Assembly (NCBI GenBank): GCA_028698335.1
Contig: JAQVDP010000002.1
Span: 1-64,000, forward strand
DNA length: 64,000 nucleotides
Direction of reading: 5' to 3'
From: Nevskiales bacterium
Lineage (GTDB): Bacteria; Pseudomonadota; Gammaproteobacteria; Nevskiales; Nevskiaceae
Shown here: positions 32,070 to 44,315 of the stretch, piece by piece
Layout: every line of letters begins with the position of its first letter
Numbering within the stretch: the first letter of the stretch is position 1
Made by a program: the position numbers and the translations under genes
Notes under the pieces: model-generated
Databases searched by the model: none
Seen by the model: the letters and a program-made list of their open reading frames with translations, nothing else
What the model was told of the DNA's origin: nothing

Positions 32070-32446
32070 GTCCGGATCGCGGTGGCAGCCAGATTCGCAA
32101 CGGTATGCCGCGCAATCGCCGATGCCCCGGCGCCGGCCTTGTTCCGGGACTTTGCCGCGCTGGGCAGTCGCAACGCCTGCCGTGCCGATGCGTGGATCAT
32201 CGATGCCGCGTCGACAGTGTGGCGCGTGCCCATGCTAGATTAACCTCGCAACTGTGGGCGGACGACGGTATGCGCTGAACGATCGGTCGTGTGCCATGGT
32301 CGTTGCGCGGATCCGTTCGAGACAAGAAACTGGGCCAACGCAACCGCACGACTCGATGCGGGTGGGTCCGGTTCGGCGCGGCCGCAACAGTGGCGACAGG
32401 TTTTTTGCAGTGTGGAGAGGCGGGCAGCATTGCCCCGGGGAGACGG
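32070..32446. other. intergenic region before the TonB2-type operon
   Basis: 377 bp without a supportable gene. Short open frames on both strands show no recognisable protein. It should contain the promoter of the hydrolase-DUF3450-ExbB operon; I see no clear hexamers. GGGGAG at 32437-32442 is the ribosome site of the next gene. Confidence 0.5.
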
Positions 32447-33244
32447 ATGTCGCATCCAGTAGTACTGATCCATGGCATGTGGTGCACCGGTGCCAACTGG
32501 GACCGCGTGCGCAGCCTGATGGAACCCCGCGGCTACGACTGTTTCGCGCCTTCGTTGCCGGCCCACGACCCGACTCCCGATCAGCCCATCGACGTGGCGC
32601 GCCTGAGCCTGCGCGATTACCTCGCCGAGCTCGAGCATCAGGTGGCGGAGCGCCGCTATGATCGCCCGCCGATCCTGATCGGCCATTCGATGGGCGGCCT
32701 GCTGGCGCAGCAGCTGGCCTGCCGGGTGCAGCCGCTGGCACTGGTGCTGCTGACGCCGGCGCCCGCCTGGGGCATCGGCGCGCTGCGCTGGGCGAATCTG
32801 CTCGCGTTCGCGCCCTGGATGTTCGGCGGTGCGTTCTGGCGCAACTCCCACAAGCCTTCGTTCCCGAACGCCGTGCGTTCGGCTTTCAACGGCGTGCCGC
32901 AGAATCGTCACCGCCACTTGTACGAGGCGCTGGTGCACGAATCGGGACGTGCCGCGTACGAGATCGGGATGTGGTGGTTCGACTGGAGCCGGGCGTCGGC
33001 GGTGGATGTCTCGCGCATCCGTTGCCCGGTGTACGTCGTCAGTTGTGGTGAGGACCGCCTGACGCCGGCGCCGGTCGTGCGCAAGCTTGCCGCGCGCTAT
33101 CCGGGCGTCACCCAGCGGTACTACCCGAGTCGGGGCCACTGGGTCATCGACGATGAAGATACAGAGGAGATGGTGCATGCCATTTGCGGGTGGCTTCGGC
33201 CGATGGAGCAGCGATATGAGCGGACACGCGCGCATGCGGCCTGA
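32447..33244 (+). CDS. alpha/beta hydrolase
   Basis: A 265-residue cytoplasmic enzyme. It has HG oxyanion motif LIHGMWCTG, nucleophile elbow GHSMGG (Ser near residue 80), acid Asp in CGEDRLTP and catalytic His in SRGHWVIDD. No signal peptide is seen. It is probably an esterase or lipase-like hydrolase; the substrate is unknown. ATG 32447 follows GGGGAG by four bases; the longer frame from 32291 is rejected. Its 3' end overlaps the DUF3450 gene by 29 bp, so it leads the second energised-machine operon. Confidence 0.88.
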   Translation: MSHPVVLIHGMWCTGANWDRVRSLMEPRGYDCFAPSLPAHDPTPDQPIDVARLSLRDYLAELEHQVAERRYDRPPILIGHSMGGLLAQQLACRVQPLALVLLTPAPAWGIGALRWANLLAFAPWMFGGAFWRNSHKPSFPNAVRSAFNGVPQNRHRHLYEALVHESGRAAYEIGMWWFDWSRASAVDVSRIRCPVYVVSCGEDRLTPAPVVRKLAARYPGVTQRYYPSRGHWVIDDEDTEEMVHAICGWLRPMEQRYERTRAHAA

Positions 33245-34019
33245 TGTGGCGGGGTGGCGAGTGCGACCGGGACAGCTGGTTGCCGTGGCACTGATGGCGA
33301 TGATGCCGATGGCGGCGTCGGCTCAGTCGGCGACGGTGACCCGCGCCATCGACGAAACCATGCGGACGCAGCAGTCGGCGGCGCAGTCGCAGGACCGGAT
33401 CGACCACCTCGACGACCAGACCCGCGCGCTGCTCGAGCGCTATCGTGCGGCGCTGTGGCAGTCGCAGCAGCTGTCGGTGTACGCGGACCAGATCGACGAG
33501 CTGAGCCAGTCGCAGGAGGCCGAGCGCGAGTCGCTCAAGCGGCAGATCGCGGAAATGGAACGCGTCGAGCGAGAACTGCTGCCGCTGATGCTGAGGATGA
33601 TCGACAGCCTGGATTCCTTCGTCGAATTCGACCTGCCGTTCCTGCAGGACGAGCGGCGTGAACGGGTGGCGGCGTTGCGCGCGCTGATGGCCGACGCGTC
33701 GTCGTCGACCGCCGAACGGTTCCGGCGCATCGTCGAGGCTTACCAGATCGAGGTCGACTACGGGCGCGGCTTCGGCGCCGAGCGCGTGGAGATCGAGGGT
33801 CGGGTGATGGATCAGTTGCGGATCGGTCGAGCCGCGCTGTTCGCGCTGGCGCTCGACGACGACGAGGCGCTGCGCTGGGATGCCGGGAGCGGCAGCTGGG
33901 AGGAGGTCGATGGGCGCTATCTCGCGGCCATCCGCGAGGGCTTGAGAATCGCAAGGGAGACGGCAGCGCCGAATCTTCTGATTCTGCCGATGCCGACCGC
34001 GGCAAAGGAGCAACCGTGA
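33216..34019 (+). CDS. DUF3450 periplasmic coiled-coil protein
   Basis: A 267-residue exported protein. The signal peptide ends near MAASAQ (residue about 37 from ATG 33216; ATG 33234 would give a shorter one). A long coiled coil follows (residues about 45-120, for example QSQEAERESLKRQIAEMERV). A globular C-terminal part has DLPFLQDERRERVAAL and YGRGFGAERVEIEG. DUF3450 proteins accompany TtpC-ExbB-ExbD-TonB2 systems, where they may link TtpC to the periplasm. GGAG at 33204-33207 supports the start. Confidence 0.88.
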   Translation: MSGHARMRPDVAGWRVRPGQLVAVALMAMMPMAASAQSATVTRAIDETMRTQQSAAQSQDRIDHLDDQTRALLERYRAALWQSQQLSVYADQIDELSQSQEAERESLKRQIAEMERVERELLPLMLRMIDSLDSFVEFDLPFLQDERRERVAALRALMADASSSTAERFRRIVEAYQIEVDYGRGFGAERVEIEGRVMDQLRIGRAALFALALDDDEALRWDAGSGSWEEVDGRYLAAIREGLRIARETAAPNLLILPMPTAAKEQP

Positions 34020-35365
34020 TGCGCGCACTGATCGCAGTCGTGCTGCTGGCGCTCGCGTCGAGCGCGTTGGCCGCCAGCCCCCGCCTCGACGAACTGCTCA
34101 AGCAGGTCAAGGAGAGCCAGACCCAGGCGTCGCAGCTCAACCGGGAGCGCGAACAGCGATTCCTGCGCGACAAGAACAAGCGGCAGGCGATGCTGGCTGA
34201 GGCGGAGCAGGATCTGGCGAAGTCCAAGGCGCGCGCCGATGCCTCGCGCAAGCGCTTCGACGCCGCCCAGCGGGAGATCGGCGAACTCAAGCAGCAGTTG
34301 CAGGAGCGCGCGGGCGACTACGTGCAGGTGACCGCGGCGGTGCGCCAGCTTGCCGGGGACTTCCGGACCGTCGCGTCCGATTCGCTGGTGACCGCGCAGG
34401 TTCCGGACCGCATGGATTTTCTCGAACAGATCGCGGACAGCCAGGACCTGCCCGGTATCTCCGAGCTCGAGCAGCTGTGGTATCTGCTGCAGGAGGAGAT
34501 GACGGAAGGCGGCAAGGTCGTCCGCTTCAGTGCCGACGTCGTCGATGAGCAGGGCCTGCGGCGTCCGGCGGAGGTGGTCAGGATCGGAACGTTCACCGCG
34601 ATGGCGGACGGCCGCTATCTGGTCGCGGGTGATTCGGGAACCGTGCTGGATGCGTTGCCGCGGCAGCCGGGCTGGAGTCTGAGCCGGCTCGCCGCCAGCT
34701 TTGCCGACGCGGAGGATGCCATCGCCCCGGCGCTGGTCGATCCGTCGCGCGGCAGCCTGCTCGTCATCGAGGGCGAGAAGCCGAGCCTGCTTGAGCGGGT
34801 CAACCAGGGCGGGCTCGTCGGTTACGTGATCATCCTGATCGGTATCGTCGGCATCGTGCTGGCGGTCGCGCAGATGAGTTATCTCGAAGTCGTCGGGCGG
34901 CGCATGCGCGCGCAGCTCAAGCAGGTGCGGGTGCCGCGTGACGACAATCCGCTGGGGCGGGTGCTGCGCGTCTTCAGCGACGATCCCGAGCACCGCGACG
35001 ACGATCCCGAGCTGCTGGAGCTGCGGCTGTCGGAGGCGGTGCTGCGCGAGATGCCGATGCTGGAACGGGCGCAGTCGATCCTCAAGCTGTTCGCAGCCGC
35101 GGCGCCGCTGCTGGGTCTGCTGGGAACGGTGACCGGCATGATCGTGACCTTCCAGACGATCACGGTGTTCGGGACCGGCGATCCCAAGCTGATGGCCGAC
35201 GGGATCTCGCAGGCGCTGGTGACGACGGTCCTGGGCCTGTGCGCGGCGATCCCGTTGCTGTTCATCAACTCGCTGCTGGCGACACGGGCGCGCAGTCTGG
35301 TGCAGATCCTCGACGAGCAGTCCGCCGGGTTGCTTGCCGAGCGCCTGGAGGGCGGCCGTGCTTGA
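34019..35365 (+). CDS. TtpC-like protein: coiled coil fused to MotA/TolQ/ExbB channel
   Basis: A 448-residue protein. A signal peptide (1-18) is followed by a periplasmic coiled coil (about 20-100) and a linker. An ExbB/TolQ-type membrane domain follows, starting with GYVIILIGIVGIVLAV, then LLGLLGTVTGMI and a helix ending LCAAIPLLFINSLL. The layout matches TtpC of Vibrio-type TonB2 systems, a second ExbB-like subunit. ATG 34019 overlaps the DUF3450 stop by one base (TGATG) and has AAAGGAG at 34004-34010; the GTG at 34016 is less likely. Confidence 0.9.
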   Translation: MRALIAVVLLALASSALAASPRLDELLKQVKESQTQASQLNREREQRFLRDKNKRQAMLAEAEQDLAKSKARADASRKRFDAAQREIGELKQQLQERAGDYVQVTAAVRQLAGDFRTVASDSLVTAQVPDRMDFLEQIADSQDLPGISELEQLWYLLQEEMTEGGKVVRFSADVVDEQGLRRPAEVVRIGTFTAMADGRYLVAGDSGTVLDALPRQPGWSLSRLAASFADAEDAIAPALVDPSRGSLLVIEGEKPSLLERVNQGGLVGYVIILIGIVGIVLAVAQMSYLEVVGRRMRAQLKQVRVPRDDNPLGRVLRVFSDDPEHRDDDPELLELRLSEAVLREMPMLERAQSILKLFAAAAPLLGLLGTVTGMIVTFQTITVFGTGDPKLMADGISQALVTTVLGLCAAIPLLFINSLLATRARSLVQILDEQSAGLLAERLEGGRA

Positions 35366-35897
35366 TGCGGCGCTGCAAGGCGTGCTGACGCCGCTGCGCT
35401 CGATCCAGGGGTTCATGGCGGCGGGCGGTTTCGTGCTGTGGTGGATCTTCGTCGCCGCGGTGGCGCTGTGGACCCTGATCCTCGAACGCTACTGGTTCTT
35501 CGCGCGGATGCTGCCGCGCATGCGTGCCGAGGTGCGCGCGCAGTGGATGGGGCGCCCGGAGCGCCGTTCCTGGACCGCGCGGCGGATCCGCGCCGCGATG
35601 ATCTCGCGCATCGAGGGCGCGATGGACGTGACGCTGCCGCTGATCCAGGTGCTGATCTCGCTGTGCCCGCTGCTCGGGCTGCTGGGCACGGTCACCGGCA
35701 TGATCGAGGTGTTCGACGTGATGGCGCTGAAGGGAACGTCCGATGCACGCGCGATGGCGGCAGGGGTCTCGCGTGCAACGATTCCGACGATGGCCGGCAT
35801 GGTCGTCGGCCTGTCCGGCCTGCTGTCGATCAACCGGTTTCGCAAGCGTGTCCGCAATGAAACGGAGCGGCTCGGTGACGAGCTGGGTTACGCATGA
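35358..35897 (+). CDS. ExbB/TolQ proton channel protein
   Basis: A 179-residue inner-membrane protein with a first helix WWIFVAAVALWTLILERYWFF. The paired helices around LISLCPLLGLLGTVTGMIEVF and AGMVVGLSGLLSI are the standard ExbB2 core. GTG 35358 is chosen: GGAGGG lies just upstream and it overlaps the previous stop. The upstream ATG at 35334 would lie deep in the preceding gene. It forms the motor with ExbD at 35894. Confidence 0.9.
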   Translation: MLDAALQGVLTPLRSIQGFMAAGGFVLWWIFVAAVALWTLILERYWFFARMLPRMRAEVRAQWMGRPERRSWTARRIRAAMISRIEGAMDVTLPLIQVLISLCPLLGLLGTVTGMIEVFDVMALKGTSDARAMAAGVSRATIPTMAGMVVGLSGLLSINRFRKRVRNETERLGDELGYA

Positions 35898-36301
35898 AGA
35901 TCCGACGTCACGGCGCCCCCCCGGAAGACACCGGCATCGACCTGACCCCGATGCTGGACGTGATCTTCATCATGCTGATCTTCTTCATCGTCACGACGAC
36001 GTTCGTGCGCGAGTCCGGCATCAAGATCAATCGGCCTGCCGCCAAGACCGCGGTCAAGCAGGACCAGACCAACATCCTCGTCGCCATTTCGCCGGAGGGC
36101 GAGATCTGGATCGACAAGCAGCGTGTCGACATCCGTTCGCTGCGCGCAATGATCCAGAAGCTCAAGGCCGAGAATCCGGAGGCGGCCGTGATCATCCAGG
36201 CGGACAAGGACGCGCGCGCCGGGCTGATGGTCGAGGCGATGGATCAGGCGCGCCTCGCCGGTGTCCGCGACGTGTCGGTTGCCGCGACGCCGCGCCAGTG
36301 A
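35894..36301 (+). CDS. ExbD stator protein
   Basis: A 135-residue protein. The membrane helix contains LTPMLDVIFIMLIFFIV with the proton-carrying Asp at about residue 22. The periplasmic domain has VIIQADKDARAGLMVEAMDQAR. This is a canonical ExbD with length near 135. It overlaps the ExbB stop by 4 bp, and a short ExbD-like protein without Asp follows 6 bp later. Confidence 0.92.
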   Translation: MKIRRHGAPPEDTGIDLTPMLDVIFIMLIFFIVTTTFVRESGIKINRPAAKTAVKQDQTNILVAISPEGEIWIDKQRVDIRSLRAMIQKLKAENPEAAVIIQADKDARAGLMVEAMDQARLAGVRDVSVAATPRQ

Positions 36302-36307
36302 CGGACG

Positions 36308-36613
36308 ATGAAGGGTCGGCTGCTGGTCTACTCGGTGGTGCTGCTGGCCGCACTCGGCTATCTGCAGTGGCGGGCACGTGCGCCGGCCAGCCTGGAGATC
36401 ACGGTCGTGCGGGAGAATCTGGTCGCCTATCGCGGACAGGCCATGTCGCTTGACGAGCTCGAAGGGGCGATCGCCGCCGATCTGCGCAGCGGACGACCGA
36501 CCAAGGTTGTCGTGACGGTGGACGGACACGCACCGAGCACCGTGCTGATCCCGGTGCTGGACCTGCTGGAGCGCAGCGGTGCCGCGGATGTGCAGGTGAT
36601 TGCGGAGCCATGA
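36308..36613 (+). CDS. minimal ExbD-like membrane protein lacking the Asp helix
   Basis: A 101-residue protein. One N-terminal hydrophobic helix (LLVYSVVLLAALGYLQW) has no acidic residue. The following about 75 residues match the ExbD periplasmic fold (AMSLDELEGAIAADL, TKVVVTVDGHAPSTVLIPVL, then AADVQVIAE). It therefore looks like an ExbD periplasmic domain on a plain membrane anchor. It could mark a regulatory or structural position in the motor. It stands exactly between exbD and tonB and overlaps the tonB start (ATGATG), so it is a designed member of the operon. Confidence 0.75.
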   Translation: MKGRLLVYSVVLLAALGYLQWRARAPASLEITVVRENLVAYRGQAMSLDELEGAIAADLRSGRPTKVVVTVDGHAPSTVLIPVLDLLERSGAADVQVIAEP

Positions 36614-37299
36614 TGCGCTGGATCGTCACGCCAGTGGCGGCGCTGCTGATCGCGTTCGCCCTGTTTCTCCTGATGTACTGGCTGATCCTGCCGCCGCAGG
36701 GGCCGGACGAGGCGCGTCGGGTGTTGCCGGATGTGGAAGTGGTGCAGCCGGTGGAGTCGGAACAACCGGATCAGGATCTGGCCAGCGCCGATGCCGCGCC
36801 GCCGCCGCCACCGGCCGCGCCGCCGTCGCTGGCACGCCCCGATCTGCCGACGACCGACATTCCGGTCATCGACGCCGCGCCGCTGGATGTGGGTCCCGTG
36901 GCGGTGACGCCGAATCTGTCGTCCAGCGGCCTCAAGCTCGGCAGCAGCGGTGCGTTCGGGGGCTTCGGCGGCAGTGGAACCGGGCAGGGCGGCGGTGGTC
37001 ATGGCAGCGGCAAGGGCTTCAAGGGCGTGCCCCTGGTGCCGCTGTCGACCGCGCGTCCGCAGATGCCGGAGTGGGCCTGCAAACAGAAGATCCGGGGCTG
37101 GGTCGAGGTCGTGTTCACGGTGCTTCCGAACGGCAGCGTGACCAATGTCAGGCTGATCGATGCCGATCCGAAGGGTGTTTTCGAGGCCGCGGCGATCGAG
37201 AGCGTGGCGCACTGGATCTATGAATCGTCGCCGAAGGCGCGCGAAGTCAAACAGCGCGTGCCGATGGACCCCGCGGACTGCGCGTACAACTGGCAATGA
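36613..37299 (+). CDS. TonB-family energy transducer
   Basis: About 228 residues. It has a short cytoplasmic N-terminus, one membrane helix (TPVAALLIAFALFLLMYWLI), a Pro-rich spacer and a Gly/Ser-rich linker (residues about 115-140). The TonB C-terminal domain has WVEVVFTVLPNGSVTNVRLID and AAIESVAHWIY. It belongs to the TonB2 group by context. ATG 36613 is five bases after GGAG; ATG 36610 is the alternative and overlaps the upstream stop. It transmits ExbB/ExbD energy to an outer-membrane partner, not encoded here. Confidence 0.9.
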   Translation: MRWIVTPVAALLIAFALFLLMYWLILPPQGPDEARRVLPDVEVVQPVESEQPDQDLASADAAPPPPPAAPPSLARPDLPTTDIPVIDAAPLDVGPVAVTPNLSSSGLKLGSSGAFGGFGGSGTGQGGGGHGSGKGFKGVPLVPLSTARPQMPEWACKQKIRGWVEVVFTVLPNGSVTNVRLIDADPKGVFEAAAIESVAHWIYESSPKAREVKQRVPMDPADCAYNWQ

Positions 37300-37313: not shown

Positions 37314-39878
37314 ATGCCGCGCCGGACCTCCGGCCGTCCCTGGTGGATCGCTTGGGTCCTGATGTCCATCGTGCCGGTCGCGATGGCCGACCAGTACCGC
37401 AGCGAAACCCGCGAGCTGGACAGGGTGCCGCCCCCGGTGCAGCAGAAGAGCCCGGAGGAGCTGCTGCGGATCACGACCGATCCCTACGCGAAGTCGCTGC
37501 TGCTGCGTGATCTGGCGGCGCAGGCTGCCCAGCAGAAGGATTACGCCAAGGCCGCGCGCTATATGGAGCAGGCGCTGCAACAGAAGGCGTTCTCGGGGGT
37601 CGCCGAGCAGCAGATGCGCGAGCAGCTGTCTGATCTGTATCTGGCCAGCGGCGACTATCAGAAGCTGATTCCGGAGCTCGAGGCGCAGGTCCGCAGTGGC
37701 AAGGCGCGTCCGGAGATCATGGTGGCGCTGGGGTCCGCGTATCTGCAGAAGAAGCGTTATCGCGAGGCCGCCTCGCTGCTGGAGCGGGCCGTGCGGGCGT
37801 CGCGCAACGTCGACCCGAGCTGGCGCCGCGCGCTGGCCGCCGCACTGATCGGTGCAGGGCGTGAACGCGAGGCCTTGCCGCAGCTGGAGCAGCTGCTGCA
37901 GGAGGATCCCGGACAGGGCGATGACTGGCTGCGCCTGTCGGCCCTGCATCTGAAGTTCGGCGACAAGCGGCGTGCGGCTGCGGTGATGGAGCTGGCCGGC
38001 CGCATGGGTTTTCTGAAGAGTGCCGACGACTGGGTGCGCCTGGTGACGCTGACCGGGCAGCTCGGCGCTCCGTTCGAGGCGGGCTCGTTGCTGCAGGCCA
38101 AGATGGAGGCCAAGCAGGTTCCGGTCAATGCGCAGAACTGGCGACTGCTGTCGTCGCTGTGGCTGGCGGCGCGCGAGGATGCACTGGCGCTGCCGGCGCT
38201 GGACGAGGCCATCCGGCTGGCGCCGTCGCCCGATCTGTATCGCCAACGGGCCCAGCTGCGGATGGATCGGGAGCAGTATGGCGAGGCGGCGCGTGACTTC
38301 GAGCGGGCGATCGCGGCGGGCGCCAAGGATGCGCCGACCCGGATGGCGTTGGCGATCGCCCGTTATCAGCAGGCCGATATCGACGGCGCGCTCGAAGCGT
38401 TTCGCAGCGCCCGCGATGCCGGCGGCAACAAGAAGCTGGCCTCGGACTGGATCAGCTACCTCGAGAGCGGCCGCGCCCGCGAGCAGGCGCTGGCGGCGGC
38501 CGCCCAGCGCGCGCCCGCGGAGGACGAGACGATCCAGCTCAGCGGCCGTCTGAGTGGCGCGGCCATCGAGATCGCGGCCGACGATGCCACGGCGGACAAA
38601 CCCGGCCCCCGCGGCGGCGGTCTGACGCCGGTCGGCGCCGAGGCCGACGGCAATGCCGACGGAACGATTCCGCCCTGGACCGGGGGCCTGCAGCGCGCGC
38701 AGTGGCCACAGGGCTTCAAGCCCGGGCAGCGCCTGAAGGATCCCTTCGCCGGGGACCGGCCGCTGTTCACGATCACCGGCGCCAATCTGGCGCGCTACCG
38801 CAGCCACCTCAGTCGCGGGCATCAGGCGCTGCTGGAAAACGATCCCGGTTACAAGATGCCGGTGTATCCGTCACGGCGCAGCGTCAGTTACCCGCAGGCG
38901 ATCTATGAAGCCTCGCAGGCGAACATCGGCCGTGCCAAGCTGCTCGGTCCCGATGCGCTGGCCGGCGCCCGCCTGGGGGTGCCGTTTCCGAAGCCGAAGT
39001 CCGGTGTCGAGATCATGTGGAACCACCGTACGCGCTATCGCGGCGACACGCTGGTGCAGCAGACGACGCAGGCGGTAGTCCGTCCGGGGGACAAGCCGCA
39101 GTATCTCAAGCAGAGCGAGCGGGTCTATTTCCGCTACGGCAACCTGAAGGATCCGATCGACCTGTCGGACAAGAATATCCTGCTGTATTACCTGACGTGG
39201 TTCGGCAAGACCACTAATGCCATCGACTTCGTCGCGCTGGTGCACGAGACGGCGAACTCGCTGGAAAACTCGCGCAACGTCTGGGTCAAGCCGCCGAAGG
39301 TTCCGCGTCTGTTCCGGATTCCGCCGGTCGGGTACGACCAGCCGTTCCCGGGATCCGAGGCGCTGATGTTCGTGGACATGCTCGACATGTACAACGGCGC
39401 CTTCGACCGCTACGTCTGGAAGCTCGTCGGCAAGCGCGAGATCTATATCCCGTACAACGCATACCGGATCAGCGACGGCCACTACAGCTACGCGCAGCTG
39501 TTGCAGGACCGGCACTTCAATCAGGATGCGACGCGCTATGAACTGCACCGGGTCTGGGTGATCGAGGCCACCGAGCGCGAGGGGCGCAACCACACGTTCG
39601 GCAAGCGGACCTTCTACGTCGACGAGGACAGCTGGAACGTGGTGCTGGTCGAGAATGAGGACCACGCCGGCAAGCTGTGGCGCTTCCAGGAAGGACATCT
39701 GCTGCCGGCTTACGACATCCAGGCCGCCAACTCGGCGCCGACGCTGACCTACGATCTGAAGGACGGCCGTTATTTCGTCAACCGGCTCAGCGCCGAGGAT
39801 GCGCCGCCGCAATACGGCGAGCCGATGCGCGATGCGGAATTCCTGCCCGCTGCGGTCAAGGCGCGCTACTCGCGATAA
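37314..39878 (+). CDS. TPR protein fused to a DUF1329 domain
   Basis: An 854-residue exported protein. The signal peptide (to about residue 26, ending PVAMADQ) is followed by a TPR solenoid at residues about 45-395 (YAKAARYMEQALQQKAF and similar). A charged linker (about 400-430) leads into a complete DUF1329 domain to the end, starting LTPVGAEADGNADGTIPPWT. The free DUF1329 protein encoded at 42353 shares the same opening and motifs (YNGAFDRYVWKLVGKREIYIPYN; FYVDEDSW; FQEGH). TonB2 operons normally end in a stand-alone TPR gene; here it is joined to a lipid-carrier-like domain. ATG 37314 follows GGAG by five bases and overlaps nothing; an ATG at 37296 overlaps tonB. Confidence 0.88.
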   Translation: MPRRTSGRPWWIAWVLMSIVPVAMADQYRSETRELDRVPPPVQQKSPEELLRITTDPYAKSLLLRDLAAQAAQQKDYAKAARYMEQALQQKAFSGVAEQQMREQLSDLYLASGDYQKLIPELEAQVRSGKARPEIMVALGSAYLQKKRYREAASLLERAVRASRNVDPSWRRALAAALIGAGREREALPQLEQLLQEDPGQGDDWLRLSALHLKFGDKRRAAAVMELAGRMGFLKSADDWVRLVTLTGQLGAPFEAGSLLQAKMEAKQVPVNAQNWRLLSSLWLAAREDALALPALDEAIRLAPSPDLYRQRAQLRMDREQYGEAARDFERAIAAGAKDAPTRMALAIARYQQADIDGALEAFRSARDAGGNKKLASDWISYLESGRAREQALAAAAQRAPAEDETIQLSGRLSGAAIEIAADDATADKPGPRGGGLTPVGAEADGNADGTIPPWTGGLQRAQWPQGFKPGQRLKDPFAGDRPLFTITGANLARYRSHLSRGHQALLENDPGYKMPVYPSRRSVSYPQAIYEASQANIGRAKLLGPDALAGARLGVPFPKPKSGVEIMWNHRTRYRGDTLVQQTTQAVVRPGDKPQYLKQSERVYFRYGNLKDPIDLSDKNILLYYLTWFGKTTNAIDFVALVHETANSLENSRNVWVKPPKVPRLFRIPPVGYDQPFPGSEALMFVDMLDMYNGAFDRYVWKLVGKREIYIPYNAYRISDGHYSYAQLLQDRHFNQDATRYELHRVWVIEATEREGRNHTFGKRTFYVDEDSWNVVLVENEDHAGKLWRFQEGHLLPAYDIQAANSAPTLTYDLKDGRYFVNRLSAEDAPPQYGEPMRDAEFLPAAVKARYSR

Positions 39879-39970: not shown

Positions 39971-40243
39971 ATGAAAACCACAATCAGCAGTCTTTCCACC
40001 TGGATCGCGATGGCCGCACTGAGCGTGCCGATGGCTGTCGCCGCGGCGGGGCCGCAGGCGCCCTGCGTGTCTCAGGCCGACGATCACATCGAGGCGGCGG
40101 TGGCGCGCCTGCGCCAGGAGCAGCGGCAGCAGATGCAGTCCAACGCCGAGGTGGCGCTGGCGCAGCTGCGCTCGCGGGTCGCAATGGCACGCGCCAGCGG
40201 GGCCGCGGTGGCCGATGCACCCGGGATCAAGGCCGAGCGCTGA
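39971..40243 (+). CDS. small secreted protein, unknown
   Basis: A 90-residue protein with signal peptide (residues 1-25, ending VAAAG). A single Cys (APCVSQADD) follows, then an amphipathic, Gln-rich helix (VARLRQEQRQQMQSNAEVAL). Family not recognised. ATG 39971 has a GGGGG-type ribosome site. A hairpin with TTCGGCGCC/GGCGCCGAA arms (39901-39951) precedes it and may end the upstream operon. Confidence 0.6.
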   Translation: MKTTISSLSTWIAMAALSVPMAVAAAGPQAPCVSQADDHIEAAVARLRQEQRQQMQSNAEVALAQLRSRVAMARASGAAVADAPGIKAER

Positions 40244-40261
40244 GGTCGCTGCGACCCGGGA

Positions 40262-40714
40262 TCAGACCGTCGCGTCGAGCCGCTGCGCGAGCAGTTGCGC
40301 GATTCCGGGCATCGCGGTGGCGACTTCGGCTTCGGCACTGCCGCGCAGGCGCTTGTAGGCCGATTGCACGCTGCCGCTGGCCTGGCGGACACGCAGGTCG
40401 GCGACGCCCAGCAGGGCCTCAGTCGCACGGTCGCTGCGCTGCTGCAGAAAGGCTGCGAAATCGATGGAATGGCCGCCGTCCATGTACTCCTGATACAACG
40501 GGTCCAGCGCCTCGGCAAAGTCCGGCAGCAGGCGGTTGACCGCTCGCGGCAGAATGCCCGGTTTGGCGGATTTGAGCACCGCCAGGCCGGCTTTCAGGGT
40601 GGCGCCCTTGAGTCCCTTGCGCGACGCGACCTGACCTTCGATCAGCTCGACCAGTGCACCGACCAGCGAGTCGCGTCGGTCGTTAGCCAATAGAATATCG
40701 GAGAAATTGTTCAC
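40262..40714 (-). CDS. DUF6918-like helical protein
   Basis: A 150-residue soluble protein, mostly helical: VNNFSDILLANDRRDSLVGA at the start and VGALVELIEGQVASRKGLKG later. No signal peptide. The repeated Lys/Gly stretch KGLKGATLKAGL recalls DUF6918, known next to ABC1-type kinases. GTG 40714 is chosen because the protein-like sequence begins there; the longer frame is the shadow of the kinase gene. It is divergent from the ABC1 kinase with only 10 bp between starts, so promoters must overlap the coding regions. Confidence 0.7.
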   Translation of the reverse strand: MNNFSDILLANDRRDSLVGALVELIEGQVASRKGLKGATLKAGLAVLKSAKPGILPRAVNRLLPDFAEALDPLYQEYMDGGHSIDFAAFLQQRSDRATEALLGVADLRVRQASGSVQSAYKRLRGSAEAEVATAMPGIAQLLAQRLDATV

Positions 40715-40724
40715 GGACTGTTCG

Positions 40725-42164
40725 ATGTCCCCATCTGACAAGCCGTCGCAGGACGGCGAAAAGCGCGCCAAGGGTAGCATCTCGTCTCTGAAGACCGGAT
40801 CGATCGAGCGCGGCGTCGCATTGACCAAGCTCGGGGTCGGCGCGGGTGCCAAGATCATGGCGCATTCACTTGCCAACATCTTCCGGGGCGAGGTCGAGCG
40901 CGACCAGGCCAAGCGCGACTTCTACCAGCGGCAGGCGCAGATCCTGGCCGACGAACTCGGGCAGCTCAAGGGCAGTGTGATGAAGGCCGGGCAGATGCTG
41001 TCGCTCTACGGCCAGTACTTCCTGCCGGAGGAAGCGGTGACGGTCCTGTCCTCGCTGCAGGACGACACGCCGCCGGTCGACTGGCGCGTCGTTGCGCCGG
41101 TGCTCGAACGCTCGCTCGGCGCGGCGCGGCTGCGTGAACTGGAAATCGACGAAACGCCGATCGCCGCGGCCTCGCTGGGCCAGGCCCACCGCGCCCGGCG
41201 CAAGTCCGACGGCCTGGATCTGTGCATCAAGGTGCAGTATCCCGGGGTCGCCAACGCAATCGAGAGCGACGTCCGGACCCTGTCGCGGCTGTTGATCATG
41301 ACGCGCCTGACGCCCAAGGGGCTGGATCTGGCGCCGGTCTTCGCCGAGGTCAAGGAAATGCTGCATCGCGAGGTCGACTACGAGGCCGAGCGCCGTTTCA
41401 CCGAGCAGTTCGCCGAGCGCCTCGCCGGCGACGAGCGTTTCGTGGTGCCGCAGGTGCTGGGTGAATACAGCACCCGCGAGGTGCTCACGACGACCTACGA
41501 GCACGGCAAGGGCGTCCGCCATGCCGACGTGCAGGGGATCAACCTGGAGCGGCGCAACCGTCTCGGACGCGCATTTCTGGAGCTGTTTCTGACCGAGTTC
41601 TTCGACTGGGGAACGGTCCAGTCCGACCCGCATTTCGGCAACTACCGCATCCGTCTGGGCGAGAACGCGGAGCCCGATCGCATCGTGCTGCTGGATTTCG
41701 GCGCCACGCGGGTGTTTCCGCGCCGCTTCGTCAACAACTACGCGCAGATCGTCAGCGGTGCCGTCGAGCACGACCGGGAACGGATCTTCAGCGGTGCCAA
41801 GGCGATCGGTCTGATGCAGGACGGATTTCCGGACAACGTCGTCGACGCCTTTGCGCGTCTGTGCGAGCTGATCGTCGAGCCGTTCAGCGGCAAGGACGAT
41901 CCTGCGGTGCCGGCGAAGCTGCGCAATGCCGAGGGCGAGTACTGCTGGGGCGCCAGCGACCTGCCGATGCGGACCAGTCGCATGGCCGCGATGAACACCC
42001 TGTCGATGTCCTTCCGCATGCCCCCGCGGGAGATCGTGTTTCTGCACCGGCGCCTTGCGGGCGTCTTCATCATGCTGGCGACGCTCGGCTGCGAGTTCTC
42101 GGGACGCGAGCTGCTGCTCGACGCCCTCGAATCCGGGGACGCGGCGCAACCGTATCTCGTCTAG
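40725..42164 (+). CDS. ABC1/UbiB-family atypical kinase
   Basis: A 479-residue protein of the ABC1 (AarF/UbiB) kinase-like family. The motif KAGQMLSLYGQYFLP is the KxGQ element that defines the family. AASLGQAHRARRKSDGL is the A-rich loop. The catalytic region has DPHFGNYRI, with LLDFGAT as the metal-binding Asp. There is no membrane helix. UbiB proteins assist ubiquinone synthesis and other ABC1 proteins act in lipid homeostasis. This one is not next to ubi genes, so the role is unassigned. Start ATG 40725 has no strong ribosome site. Confidence 0.88.
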   Translation: MSPSDKPSQDGEKRAKGSISSLKTGSIERGVALTKLGVGAGAKIMAHSLANIFRGEVERDQAKRDFYQRQAQILADELGQLKGSVMKAGQMLSLYGQYFLPEEAVTVLSSLQDDTPPVDWRVVAPVLERSLGAARLRELEIDETPIAAASLGQAHRARRKSDGLDLCIKVQYPGVANAIESDVRTLSRLLIMTRLTPKGLDLAPVFAEVKEMLHREVDYEAERRFTEQFAERLAGDERFVVPQVLGEYSTREVLTTTYEHGKGVRHADVQGINLERRNRLGRAFLELFLTEFFDWGTVQSDPHFGNYRIRLGENAEPDRIVLLDFGATRVFPRRFVNNYAQIVSGAVEHDRERIFSGAKAIGLMQDGFPDNVVDAFARLCELIVEPFSGKDDPAVPAKLRNAEGEYCWGASDLPMRTSRMAAMNTLSMSFRMPPREIVFLHRRLAGVFIMLATLGCEFSGRELLLDALESGDAAQPYLV

Positions 42165-42352: not shown

Positions 42353-43711
42353 ATGAATAAACGTCTCGCCGTTATCACCGGCGCCGTGGCCCTGTCGCTG
42401 ATGGCCGGTCACGCCATCGCCAAGGTGCCCGCCGCCGAGGCCGATCAGCTCGGCAAGGACCTGACCCCAGTCGGCGCCGAGCGTGCCGGCAACCAGGCGG
42501 GCACGATCCCCGAGTGGACCCCGGCGCAGCGCCGCGGCTCGCTCGAGGGCGAGTTCCCGAACAATCCGAAGGTCGATGCCGAGAAGCCGATCTTCGCGAT
42601 CACCAAGGCCAACATGGCCAAGTACGCCGACAAGCTGTCAGAGGGGCACAAGTTCCTGCTGAACACCTACGACAGCTACAAGATGAACATCTATCCGGCG
42701 CACCGCGAGGTCACCTGGCCGAACGAGATTCTGGAGGCAACCAAGGCCAACGCGACGACCTGCGAGATGCTGGATCCGGATACGCCGAACAACTGCACGC
42801 TCGGCTTCCCGTTCCCGATTCCGAAGTCCGGCGCCGAGCCGATCTGGAACCACAAGCTGAAGTGGCGTGGCGAAGCGGTCACCCGCTACAACAACCAGAT
42901 GATCGTGCAGCCCAACGGCGATTTTCAGCTCACCAAGATCGTCGAGGACGTCGAGTTCGGCTACGCGTCGATCAAGAATCCGGTGACCCTGACCAAGAGC
43001 GGCAGCGGCGAGATCCTGAAGTATCTGTCCAAGACCGTGGCGCCGCCGCGGCTGGCGGGTACCTTCATCCTCGTACATGAAAAGCCGGGAACCGGCGCCG
43101 AAGGCCGTTCCGCGTGGCTGTACTCGCCGGGCCTGAAGCGCATCCGCCGTGCACCGACGGTGTGCTGCGACAACCCGTACGAGGGCACCGACGGTCACCA
43201 GTTCTATGACCAGGTCGACATGTTCAACGGCGCCCTCGACCGCTACAACTGGAAGCTGGTCGGCAAGAAGGAAATCTTCATTCCGTACAACTCCAACCGT
43301 ATCGCCGGGCCGCAGACCAAGTACAAGGACATGGCCAAGCCGCGCCACCTGAACCAGGATCTGCCGCGCTACGAGCTGCATCGTGTCTGGATCGTCGAGG
43401 CCAACATCAAGCCGGGGACGAGCCACACGTTCAAGACCCGCCGCTTCTACATCGACGAGGACTCCTGGACGATCGCGCTGGTCGACGACTACGACAACCG
43501 CGACCAGCTCTACCAGTTCCAGGAGGGCCACATCGTGTTCGGCTACAACGTCCTGTCGGCGACCACGGTTCCGGAAGTCATCTACCACTTCACCTCGGGC
43601 CGCTACTTCATCACCGCGGCGTTCAACGAGGACAAGCCGCTGGATCTGACCGCGAAGTTCAAGCCGGATTACTTCACGGCCGCGTCGGTCCAGAAGATGA
43701 CGACCAAATAA
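42353..43711 (+). CDS. DUF1329 periplasmic protein
   Basis: A 452-residue exported protein. The signal peptide (1-23, ending AGHAIAK) is followed by a DUF1329 domain over the rest. It opens with LTPVGAERAGNQAGTIPEWT and includes YNWKLVGKKEIFIPYN and FYIDEDSWTIALVDDYD. DUF1329 proteins have a LolA/LolB-like beta fold and are usually associated with handling lipids or steroids, often with DUF1302 porins (not present here). RBS GAGGAG in TTGAGGAGAACTC precedes the ATG. It is a monocistronic gene with terminator at 43743-43769. The same domain is fused to the TPR protein encoded at 37314. Confidence 0.93.
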   Translation: MNKRLAVITGAVALSLMAGHAIAKVPAAEADQLGKDLTPVGAERAGNQAGTIPEWTPAQRRGSLEGEFPNNPKVDAEKPIFAITKANMAKYADKLSEGHKFLLNTYDSYKMNIYPAHREVTWPNEILEATKANATTCEMLDPDTPNNCTLGFPFPIPKSGAEPIWNHKLKWRGEAVTRYNNQMIVQPNGDFQLTKIVEDVEFGYASIKNPVTLTKSGSGEILKYLSKTVAPPRLAGTFILVHEKPGTGAEGRSAWLYSPGLKRIRRAPTVCCDNPYEGTDGHQFYDQVDMFNGALDRYNWKLVGKKEIFIPYNSNRIAGPQTKYKDMAKPRHLNQDLPRYELHRVWIVEANIKPGTSHTFKTRRFYIDEDSWTIALVDDYDNRDQLYQFQEGHIVFGYNVLSATTVPEVIYHFTSGRYFITAAFNEDKPLDLTAKFKPDYFTAASVQKMTTK

Positions 43712-43742
43712 GGATCGTCGGGAAGTTGGTGTACATTTGCAG

Positions 43743-43769
43743 CCGCCGGGCATTGCCCGGCGGTTTTTT
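43743..43769 (+). terminator. terminator of the DUF1329 gene
   Basis: A 9-bp stem CCGCCGGGC/GCCCGGCGG (43743-43751 with 43755-43763) is followed by six T. Confidence 0.9.
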
Positions 43770-43820: not shown

Positions 43821-44315
43821 ATGAAAATCGACGACAATCACAGCTTCGAAAAGCCGGTCGACACGGTCCTCGAGATGTTTTCGGACCGGGCCTATTTCGA
43901 AAAGAAGTACAAGAACCTGGGCTTCAGCGACATCGAAGTGCTCGATTGCGACAAGAGCGGCGACCGCTTCCTCATCAAGGTGCGCTACGCCGCGACCAGC
44001 GATGCGCCGATTCCCCAGTTCGCCAAGAAAATTCTGGGCGACAAGAGCATCATAACGCAGCAGGACGAGTGGAATCTCAAGTCCAGAACCGGTCGCATCA
44101 CGATCGAGGTCAAGGGCGTGCCGGTCAAGCTCGGCTGCGACATGCGCCTGCAGCCGGAGGGCAAGGGTGCTGTCAACCGTATGAGCTGGTCGATCAGCTG
44201 CGGCATTCCGCTGATCGGCGGTAAGCTCGAGAAGATCATCGGCGACGATATCCTCAGCAAGTCCGACAAGGACCGTACGGTCTCGGCCAAGTTGCTCGAG
44301 AGCTACGGCGCCTGA
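43821..44315 (+). CDS. DUF2505-family protein
   Basis: A 164-residue cytoplasmic protein resembling DUF2505, a START/Bet v1-like fold for small hydrophobic ligands: FEKPVDTVLEMFSDRAYFEKK and ITIEVKGVPVKLGCDMRLQP. No catalytic residues are evident. AGGGGAG lies six bases before ATG 43821, so the upstream extension to 43737 is rejected. With DUF1329 genes on one side, it may be part of a lipid- or steroid-related set (inference). Confidence 0.82.
   Translation: MKIDDNHSFEKPVDTVLEMFSDRAYFEKKYKNLGFSDIEVLDCDKSGDRFLIKVRYAATSDAPIPQFAKKILGDKSIITQQDEWNLKSRTGRITIEVKGVPVKLGCDMRLQPEGKGAVNRMSWSISCGIPLIGGKLEKIIGDDILSKSDKDRTVSAKLLESYGA

Follow-up and report, generated by a model that had tools for sequence, protein, structure and literature searches.

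The window analysed here, a stretch of 64,000 nucleotides from a Nevskiales bacterium (contig JAQVDP010000002.1 of assembly GCA_028698335.1), carries at positions 37314-39878 a single intact gene of 854 codons, in which a signal-peptide-like start is followed by a tetratricopeptide repeat (TPR) solenoid, a disordered linker of approximately 35 residues and then a whole DUF1329 domain. The gene is located directly after tonB in a full TtpB-TtpC-ExbB-ExbD-TonB operon, and on its sequence the TPR half is TtpD, the TPR subunit encoded by the last operon gene of the published TonB2 system. The fusion is real and conserved. Tentatively, and at somewhat less than even chances, we suggest that TtpD-DUF1329 may serve as an adaptor coupling the TonB2 motor to a hydrophobe-handling outer-membrane route, possibly one of plug-less DUF1302 barrels, the mechanism being one that we infer.

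Architecture of the TtpD-DUF1329 fusion

The reading frame is free of stop codons on the forward strand from 37296 or 37314 to 39878. The latter start, adopted in the original prediction, which a model made from the letters of the sequence alone, lies 14 bases past the tonB stop codon (tonB end: 37299). The parts of the gene are the following:

37314..39878, + strand: TtpD-DUF1329 fusion gene, 854 amino acids (open frame; Pfam TPR and DUF1329; AlphaFold model)
37314..37391, + strand: predicted Sec signal peptide, residues 1-26, ending in AMA and followed by DQYRS (by eye)
37452..38507, + strand: TPR solenoid, the TtpD part, residues 47-398 (model helices 47-398)
38508..38621, + strand: disordered linker, residues 399-436 (predicted local distance difference test, pLDDT, below 50 at 400-434)
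38622..39875, + strand: DUF1329 domain with predicted LolA-like fold, residues 437-854 (PF07044, 354 bits; Foldseek)

That the TPR solenoid runs on into a full DUF1329 domain, as had been predicted, was confirmed for the one open frame by Pfam, which places TPR families at approximately residues 105-365 and DUF1329 at residues 486-847 (PF07044; profile positions 1-366 of 368; Bitscore: 354, cut-off: 23.1; e-value: 1.2e-105). A scan of the protein against NCBIfam gave no model above its cut-off. The proposed kinship of the C-terminal half to the free DUF1329 protein encoded at 42353-43711 is likewise borne out (BlastP; 39% amino acid identity over 449 aligned positions; e-value: 6e-112). A lipobox-like string was observed in three of 34 N-termini (the window and 33 relatives, with start codons picked by script), and a cysteine shortly upstream of a conserved QY in two, suggesting that a lipoprotein is not the rule for the fusion; the QY itself, just past the signal peptide, is invariant in a 13-row alignment. 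Both halves are probably periplasmic.

The AlphaFold model (mean pLDDT: 85; predicted TM-score, pTM: 0.62) consists of a TPR superhelix (residues 47-398), an unordered linker (residues 400-434) and a confidently modelled DUF1329 domain. The first-ranked Foldseek match is LolA3 of Porphyromonas gingivalis (9tp6; TMt: 0.80), and further matches include a LolA-like protein of Vibrio (3bk5; TMt: 0.73), a solved DUF1329 protein (4z48; TMt: 0.75) and many TPR superhelices, each match being assigned to the DUF1329 or the TPR half by fold, without aligned ranges. As modelled, the DUF1329 half has the LolA-like fold that had been anticipated for it. The median identity of 34 relatives to the window is 62% for DUF1329, 50% for the TPR part and 24% for the linker, so that constraint on the added domain is no weaker than on the TtpD part; linker length lies between 28 and 56 residues in 35 sequences.

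Distribution of the fusion

A long-frame ortholog (at least 310 bits and an open frame of at least 756 codons; counted by hand) is present in 58 of the 85 genomes of the host order, the remaining matches listed for the order reaching at most 254 bits. In families f1 to f6 of the order the fusion occurs in 49/58, 1/1, 4/4, 3/4, 0/1 and 1/17 genomes, respectively, and several of the f1 genomes without a match are incomplete. DUF1329 was confirmed in the same frame for 45 of the 58 (the window and 32 loci, then 12 more), the other 13 being called by frame length only. No fusion-class match was found in any of the 14 genomes of one genus of the order, or in either of the two genomes of a second. 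Outside the order, a survey of the class (274 genomes; at most six candidates scored per genome) yielded the fusion in two genomes of a single family, f117, and in a survey of the phylum (398 genomes; at most four candidates per genome) 24 other genomes matched, none with a frame longer than 583 codons, misses being possible at these candidate numbers. A scan of named genomes gave at least seven full-length matches among at least 79 loci, and the seven, from Panacagrimonas perspica, a Panacagrimonas metagenome-assembled genome (MAG), Hydrocarboniphaga daqingensis, a Nevskiaceae MAG, a Stagnimonas MAG, an Abyssibacter MAG and one further bacterium, were confirmed as fusions. One genome of the host family harbors two fusion-class matches with long frames (G342:C91 and G342:C151).

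An assembly error or frameshift joining two genes, or absence from all relatives, had been named as what would speak against the fusion. The former was rejected, as many independent genomes, among them those of the isolates P. perspica and H. daqingensis, carry the frame uninterrupted, and as to the latter, long-frame orthologs are found in the 58 genomes of the order and in the two f117 genomes beyond it.

The fused TonB2 operon

The TonB2/TtpC context was recognized in the original prediction, and Pfam agrees with it. The genes upstream of the fusion are:

33216..34019, + strand: TtpB (DUF3450), start codon not fixed (PF11932, 244 bits)
34016..35365, + strand: TtpC, a MotA/TolQ/ExbB domain with a DUF3450-like N-terminal part (PF01618, 100 bits; PF11932, 29 bits, below the cut-off of 32.6)
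35421..35897, + strand: ExbB (PF01618, 79 bits)
35894..36301, + strand: ExbD (PF02472, 112 bits)
36308..36613, + strand: second ExbD-like protein, its N-terminal membrane helix without Asp (PF02472, 24 bits, just below the cut-off of 25.4)
36610..37299, + strand: TonB2-type TonB (PF03544, 43 bits; best solved relative 2k9k, named TonB2)

The adjacency to exbB-exbD-tonB recurs among the 34 fusion loci fetched, where the genes upstream on the same strand encode TonB in 33, ExbB in 32, TtpC in 31, DUF3450 in 30 and ExbD in 27. Several of these loci are cut by contig ends, and the sole one without an upstream tonB sits at a contig end. The second ExbD-like gene, located between those for ExbD and TonB, is found in four of the 34 loci besides the window, all four in the genus of the window.

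The six proteins and their order are those of the Vibrio TonB2 and TonB3 systems (TtpB-TtpC-ExbB-ExbD-TonB-TtpD; PMC6957404), with the TPR half matching the TtpD type and TonB matching a solved TonB2 best. The TonB2 operon of Vibrio vulnificus begins with ttpB2 and ends with ttpD2, which codes for a TPR protein of 425 amino acids; both have been reported to be essential for TonB2-dependent siderophore use, and how TtpD works beyond its TPR motifs is left open (PMC6957404). The fusion differs from TtpD2, with its TPR motifs, in the 418-residue DUF1329 added on a linker. The fused operons of families f3 and f117 further differ from the Vibrio system in being without ExbD where they were read: the ExbD profile has no match in their fused TonB2 loci (L103, L104, L105, L113 and L114; L127, L128 and L240 belong to the same genomes as L105, L104 and L103, and L104 and L114 are cut further upstream), and TonB follows immediately after ExbB. 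Their ExbD may be supplied by another operon.

Searches for the TtpD type in the 274 genomes of the class and the 398 of the phylum returned 38 loci besides that of the window, one genome being represented twice. A TonB gene is present in the fetched flank of 37 of them, all 38 include the end of the TPR frame, and three are fusions. A chance TPR protein beside tonB was considered and rejected, in view of this adjacency and of the bimodal scores in the order, where fusion-class matches (at least 310 bits) stand apart from other TPR proteins (at most 254 bits).

Ordinary TonB2 operons and the origin of the fusion

The genome of the window contains two further complete TonB2 operons, on contigs C32 and C23, whose TPR genes stand alone in frames of 432 and 452 codons, and a third on the 5.2-kb contig C30, which breaks off within the TPR frame after 435 codons. 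The presence of ordinary TonB2 operons in the same genome makes the fused operon a dedicated paralog. A match to the Plug domain lies approximately 5 kb upstream of each complete stand-alone operon (C32, and C23 weakly; n = 2), and the contig of the fusion contains none; in all, 22 Plug-domain places were counted in this genome. A DUF1302 gene (C32:135224-137848) approximately 5 kb from the C32 operon was dismissed as its neighbor, as open reading frames (ORFs) resembling a peptide ABC transporter lie between the two (by eye).

A tree of 41 TtpC proteins places the 32 from fused operons on one side of a branch (Shimodaira-Hasegawa approximate likelihood ratio test, SH-aLRT: 92), apart from the nine of other operons. 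Likewise, a single branch (SH-aLRT: 99) sets off all 35 fused domains from the others in a tree of 80 DUF1329 domains; adjoining them is a clade of 25 free DUF1329 domains that includes the neighbor in the window (SH-aLRT: 96 for the union). The latter tree was built by a quick method with SH-aLRT support and without bootstrap, and took in 21 of the 72 loci of the named-genome scan that are not full-length and six of the ten strong DUF1329 of this genome besides the two in the window, the four most divergent (C41, C35 twice, C20) being left out. On these two trees the fused operon is a distinct paralog, retained alongside the ordinary ones. On the best reading, TtpD would have gained a C-terminal DUF1329 once, on a flexible linker; the fused domain might be a simple copy of the free DUF1329 next to it.

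Comparison with other DUF1329 and motor systems

Free DUF1329 proteins have been tied to monoterpenes (AmeB; PMC6394551) and, in Delftia, to phenanthrene (as quoted in PMC13101534). The AmeABCD-type module comprises a DUF1302 barrel, DUF1329, AmeC (COG4447) and an HAE3-type resistance-nodulation-division (RND) protein (PMC6394551). It resembles the fused operon in pairing a periplasmic DUF1329 of the LolA superfamily with a proton-driven inner-membrane partner. Unlike in AmeABCD, the motor here is TonB2 and not RND, the operon contains no DUF1302, and DUF1329 is covalently attached to the TPR subunit of the motor.

The link between a proton-motive-force machine and a lipid- or steroid-handling domain had been presented as undescribed, which holds in part. 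No description of a TtpD-DUF1329 fusion was found in the literature searched, most subscription journals lying outside it. However, a LolA-like domain on a proton-driven machine has a precedent in TOL_3187 of Thalassolituus oleivorans, an MMPL protein with a LolA-like domain that is up 42-fold on the n-C28 alkane (PMC6304351). The likeness, drawn from its description and not from sequence, lies in the attachment of a LolA-like domain to a proton-driven envelope protein, which in the case of TOL_3187 is induced by a long-chain alkane; TOL_3187 differs in being an MMPL/RND protein and not a TonB2 subunit. The new element is thus the joining of the TonB2 machine to a LolA-like domain.

TPR genes have also been described beside TolQR-like motors with vWA force transducers, as have CpoB-TolB-Pal fusions (PMC12204202), and nothing on DUF1329 was found in the excerpts of that account. 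Tol-Pal with CpoB shares with the present system a TolQR/ExbBD-type motor and a periplasmic TPR partner (PMC12204202). It differs in that neither Pal nor TolB, the marks of Tol-Pal, was found among the operon and neighbor proteins scanned. To our knowledge, CpoB carries no DUF1329.

DUF1302 and RND context of DUF1329

The genome of the window contains 12 strong DUF1329 places (15 matches in all), of which, by coordinates, eight lie within approximately 5 kb of an MMPL match and six beside a DUF1302 match. The places with neither nearby are the fusion, its free DUF1329 neighbor, and the DUF1329 of contigs C44 and C13. This suggests that the TonB2 motor may take the place that an RND pump occupies in other DUF1329 modules. 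Across the order, the median number of DUF1302 copies is 11 in fusion-bearing genomes (n = 58; range: 2-15) and one in genomes without the fusion (n = 27; range: 0-14), counts near 14 being lower bounds (Mann-Whitney p = 2e-9, ignoring kinship).

Eight of the 11 DUF1302 proteins of this genome show, by eye, strand-like sequence right after the signal peptide and no plug region, and none of its DUF1302 places overlaps a Plug match. The frames of these eight (L201-L208) range from approximately 620 to 910 codons, the longer ones with extra stretches, some containing Cys, between conserved blocks. A plug-less DUF1302 barrel shows no TonB box, such that TonB could not pull on it directly and an adaptor would be needed if TonB2 drives it. 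In Pseudomonas putida, both PP_0766 (DUF1329) and PP_0765 (DUF1302) are required on Tween 20, and a contact between the two has been predicted that is described as weak in the matrix and as highly likely in the figure legend (PMC10866462). The DUF1329 arm is a candidate for this adaptor because the two P. putida proteins are both needed and predicted to touch.

Possible function of the fusion and alternative explanations

In the adaptor model that we tentatively favor, the TtpD half would dock on the TtpC-ExbB-ExbD-TonB motor in the periplasm and hold the DUF1329 arm there. The arm would carry or gate a hydrophobic ligand, or grip an outer-membrane partner, the likeliest being a plug-less DUF1302 barrel, and the proton-motive force would load, release or gate the arm such that a hydrophobic compound, whether substrate or lipid, is moved across the outer membrane. 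The free DUF1329, the DUF2505 protein and the hydrolase encoded nearby might act at later steps. A role of the fusion with lipids or hydrophobes is plausible. In favor of the adaptor model are the TtpD identity of the TPR half, the retention of the operon, the whole and comparatively well conserved DUF1329 domain with its predicted LolA-like fold, the ties of free DUF1329 proteins to hydrophobes, the ABC1 and DUF2505 genes that often follow the fusion but none of the comparable stand-alone TtpD loci, the position of both DUF2505 genes of this genome beside a DUF1329, and the higher DUF1302 numbers of fusion-bearing genomes in the order. The stronger form, a motor swap in which TonB2 in this lineage replaces the RND pump as the proton-driven partner of a DUF1302/DUF1329 hydrophobe route and TtpD-DUF1329 is the physical adaptor to plug-less barrels, we consider rather unlikely; if true, it would represent TonB-powered hydrophobe transport that needs no TonB-dependent receptor.

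Several observations weigh against the adaptor model. Neither DUF1302 nor MMPL, the marks of an Ame-type module, has a match on the 303,771-base contig of the window (C12), and a DUF1302 gene near the fusion was noticed only in the single f2 genome, no tally being made over all loci (G025:C10:30985-33306, approximately 3 kb beyond DUF2505 in the fusion cluster). The contrast in DUF1302 copies may come from one or two independent losses, as 16 of the 27 genomes without the fusion belong to one family with zero or one DUF1302; the other 11 without a detected fusion, several of them incomplete, have between one and 14. Roughly half of the fusion loci lack the free DUF1329 gene (15 of the 29 with at least 6 kb downstream have it). 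A gap of 0.8 kb with a possible opposite-strand gene (by eye) separates the operon from the ABC1 block, so that co-transcription is not implied, and at a pTM of 0.62 the model does not settle how the two halves are placed relative to one another.

The fused TonB2 might alternatively be an ordinary energizer of receptors for siderophore or vitamin uptake, with DUF1329 an outer-membrane or scaffold anchor that stabilizes TtpD and handles no cargo. TtpD2 serves siderophore uptake in Vibrio, 22 Plug-domain places in this genome need energizing and a flexible linker would suit a tether; yet the contig of the fusion has no Plug match where both complete stand-alone operons have one approximately 5 kb upstream (n = 2), receptors have the other TonB2 operons, the complete pair and the truncated third, to serve them, and conservation is higher in the fused domain than in the TPR half. 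We regard this explanation as somewhat unlikely. Less probable still is that the system acts, in the manner of Tol-Pal or LolA, on outer-membrane lipid homeostasis through retrograde movement of lipids or lipoproteins rather than on nutrient uptake. Such a role would fit the LolA-like fold, the occurrence of the fusion in 49 of the 58 f1 genomes and the nearby ABC1, DUF2505 and hydrolase families with their lipid links, but the lack of a fusion-class match in 14 and two genomes of two genera indicates that the fusion is not essential for the envelope, and the absence of Pal and TolB among the proteins scanned also counts against it. Finally, the poorly conserved linker sequence and the undefined placement of the domains would be expected if the fusion were an economical way of making two independent periplasmic proteins whose halves do not cooperate; the halves have nevertheless stayed joined in fusion-bearing genomes of several families, although free DUF1329 genes are abundant, with linker length staying at 28-56 residues, and we find this explanation very improbable.

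That the covalent link has been kept across the order points to TtpD as the place of contact between the motor and its cargo system, and suggests that the proton-motive force can drive DUF1329 proteins. DUF1329 is a domain of unknown function, and the fusion makes the role of each half directly testable. It further suggests that in this group of environmental bacteria TonB2 may help to move hydrophobic compounds across the outer membrane in addition to iron carriers, and the range of cargo of TonB machines may thus widen beyond the substrates of classical receptors.

Genes flanking the fused operon

The genes on either side of the operon are:

32291..33244, + strand: alpha/beta hydrolase before the operon, start codon not fixed (PF12697, 94 bits)
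40707..42164, + strand: ABC1/UbiB-like kinase (PF03109, 183 bits)
42353..43711, + strand: free DUF1329 protein (PF07044, 417 bits)
43821..44315, + strand: DUF2505 protein, no evident signal peptide by eye (PF10698, 104 bits)

The ABC1, DUF2505 and hydrolase families have lipid links. Among the 34 fetched fusion loci the hydrolase is encoded upstream on the same strand in 15, and ABC1, DUF2505 and the free DUF1329 downstream on the same strand in 25, 23 and 16, respectively; for the 29 loci with at least 6 kb downstream the numbers are 23, 21 and 15. None of the three is found in nine chosen stand-alone TtpD loci, eight of which, with at least 6 kb downstream, are comparable, as contig C30 ends at the TPR gene.

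By eye, a small ORF with a signal-peptide-like start and an ORF on the opposite strand, perhaps divergent from ABC1, can be observed at 39971-40912. A terminator-like hairpin of 11 pairs with a T run is located between the free DUF1329 and DUF2505 genes (43741-43765); the region contains five terminator-like sites against a shuffle mean of 6.2, and their count is itself no evidence. The genome of the window encodes two DUF2505 proteins, both beside a DUF1329, one being that after the free DUF1329 in the window. The other pair, on contig C13 (L079, 4498-10658), stands in a row of genes for a cytochrome P450, DUF2505, a divergent DUF1329 and an aldehyde dehydrogenase, which is possibly a hydrophobe-oxidation cluster.

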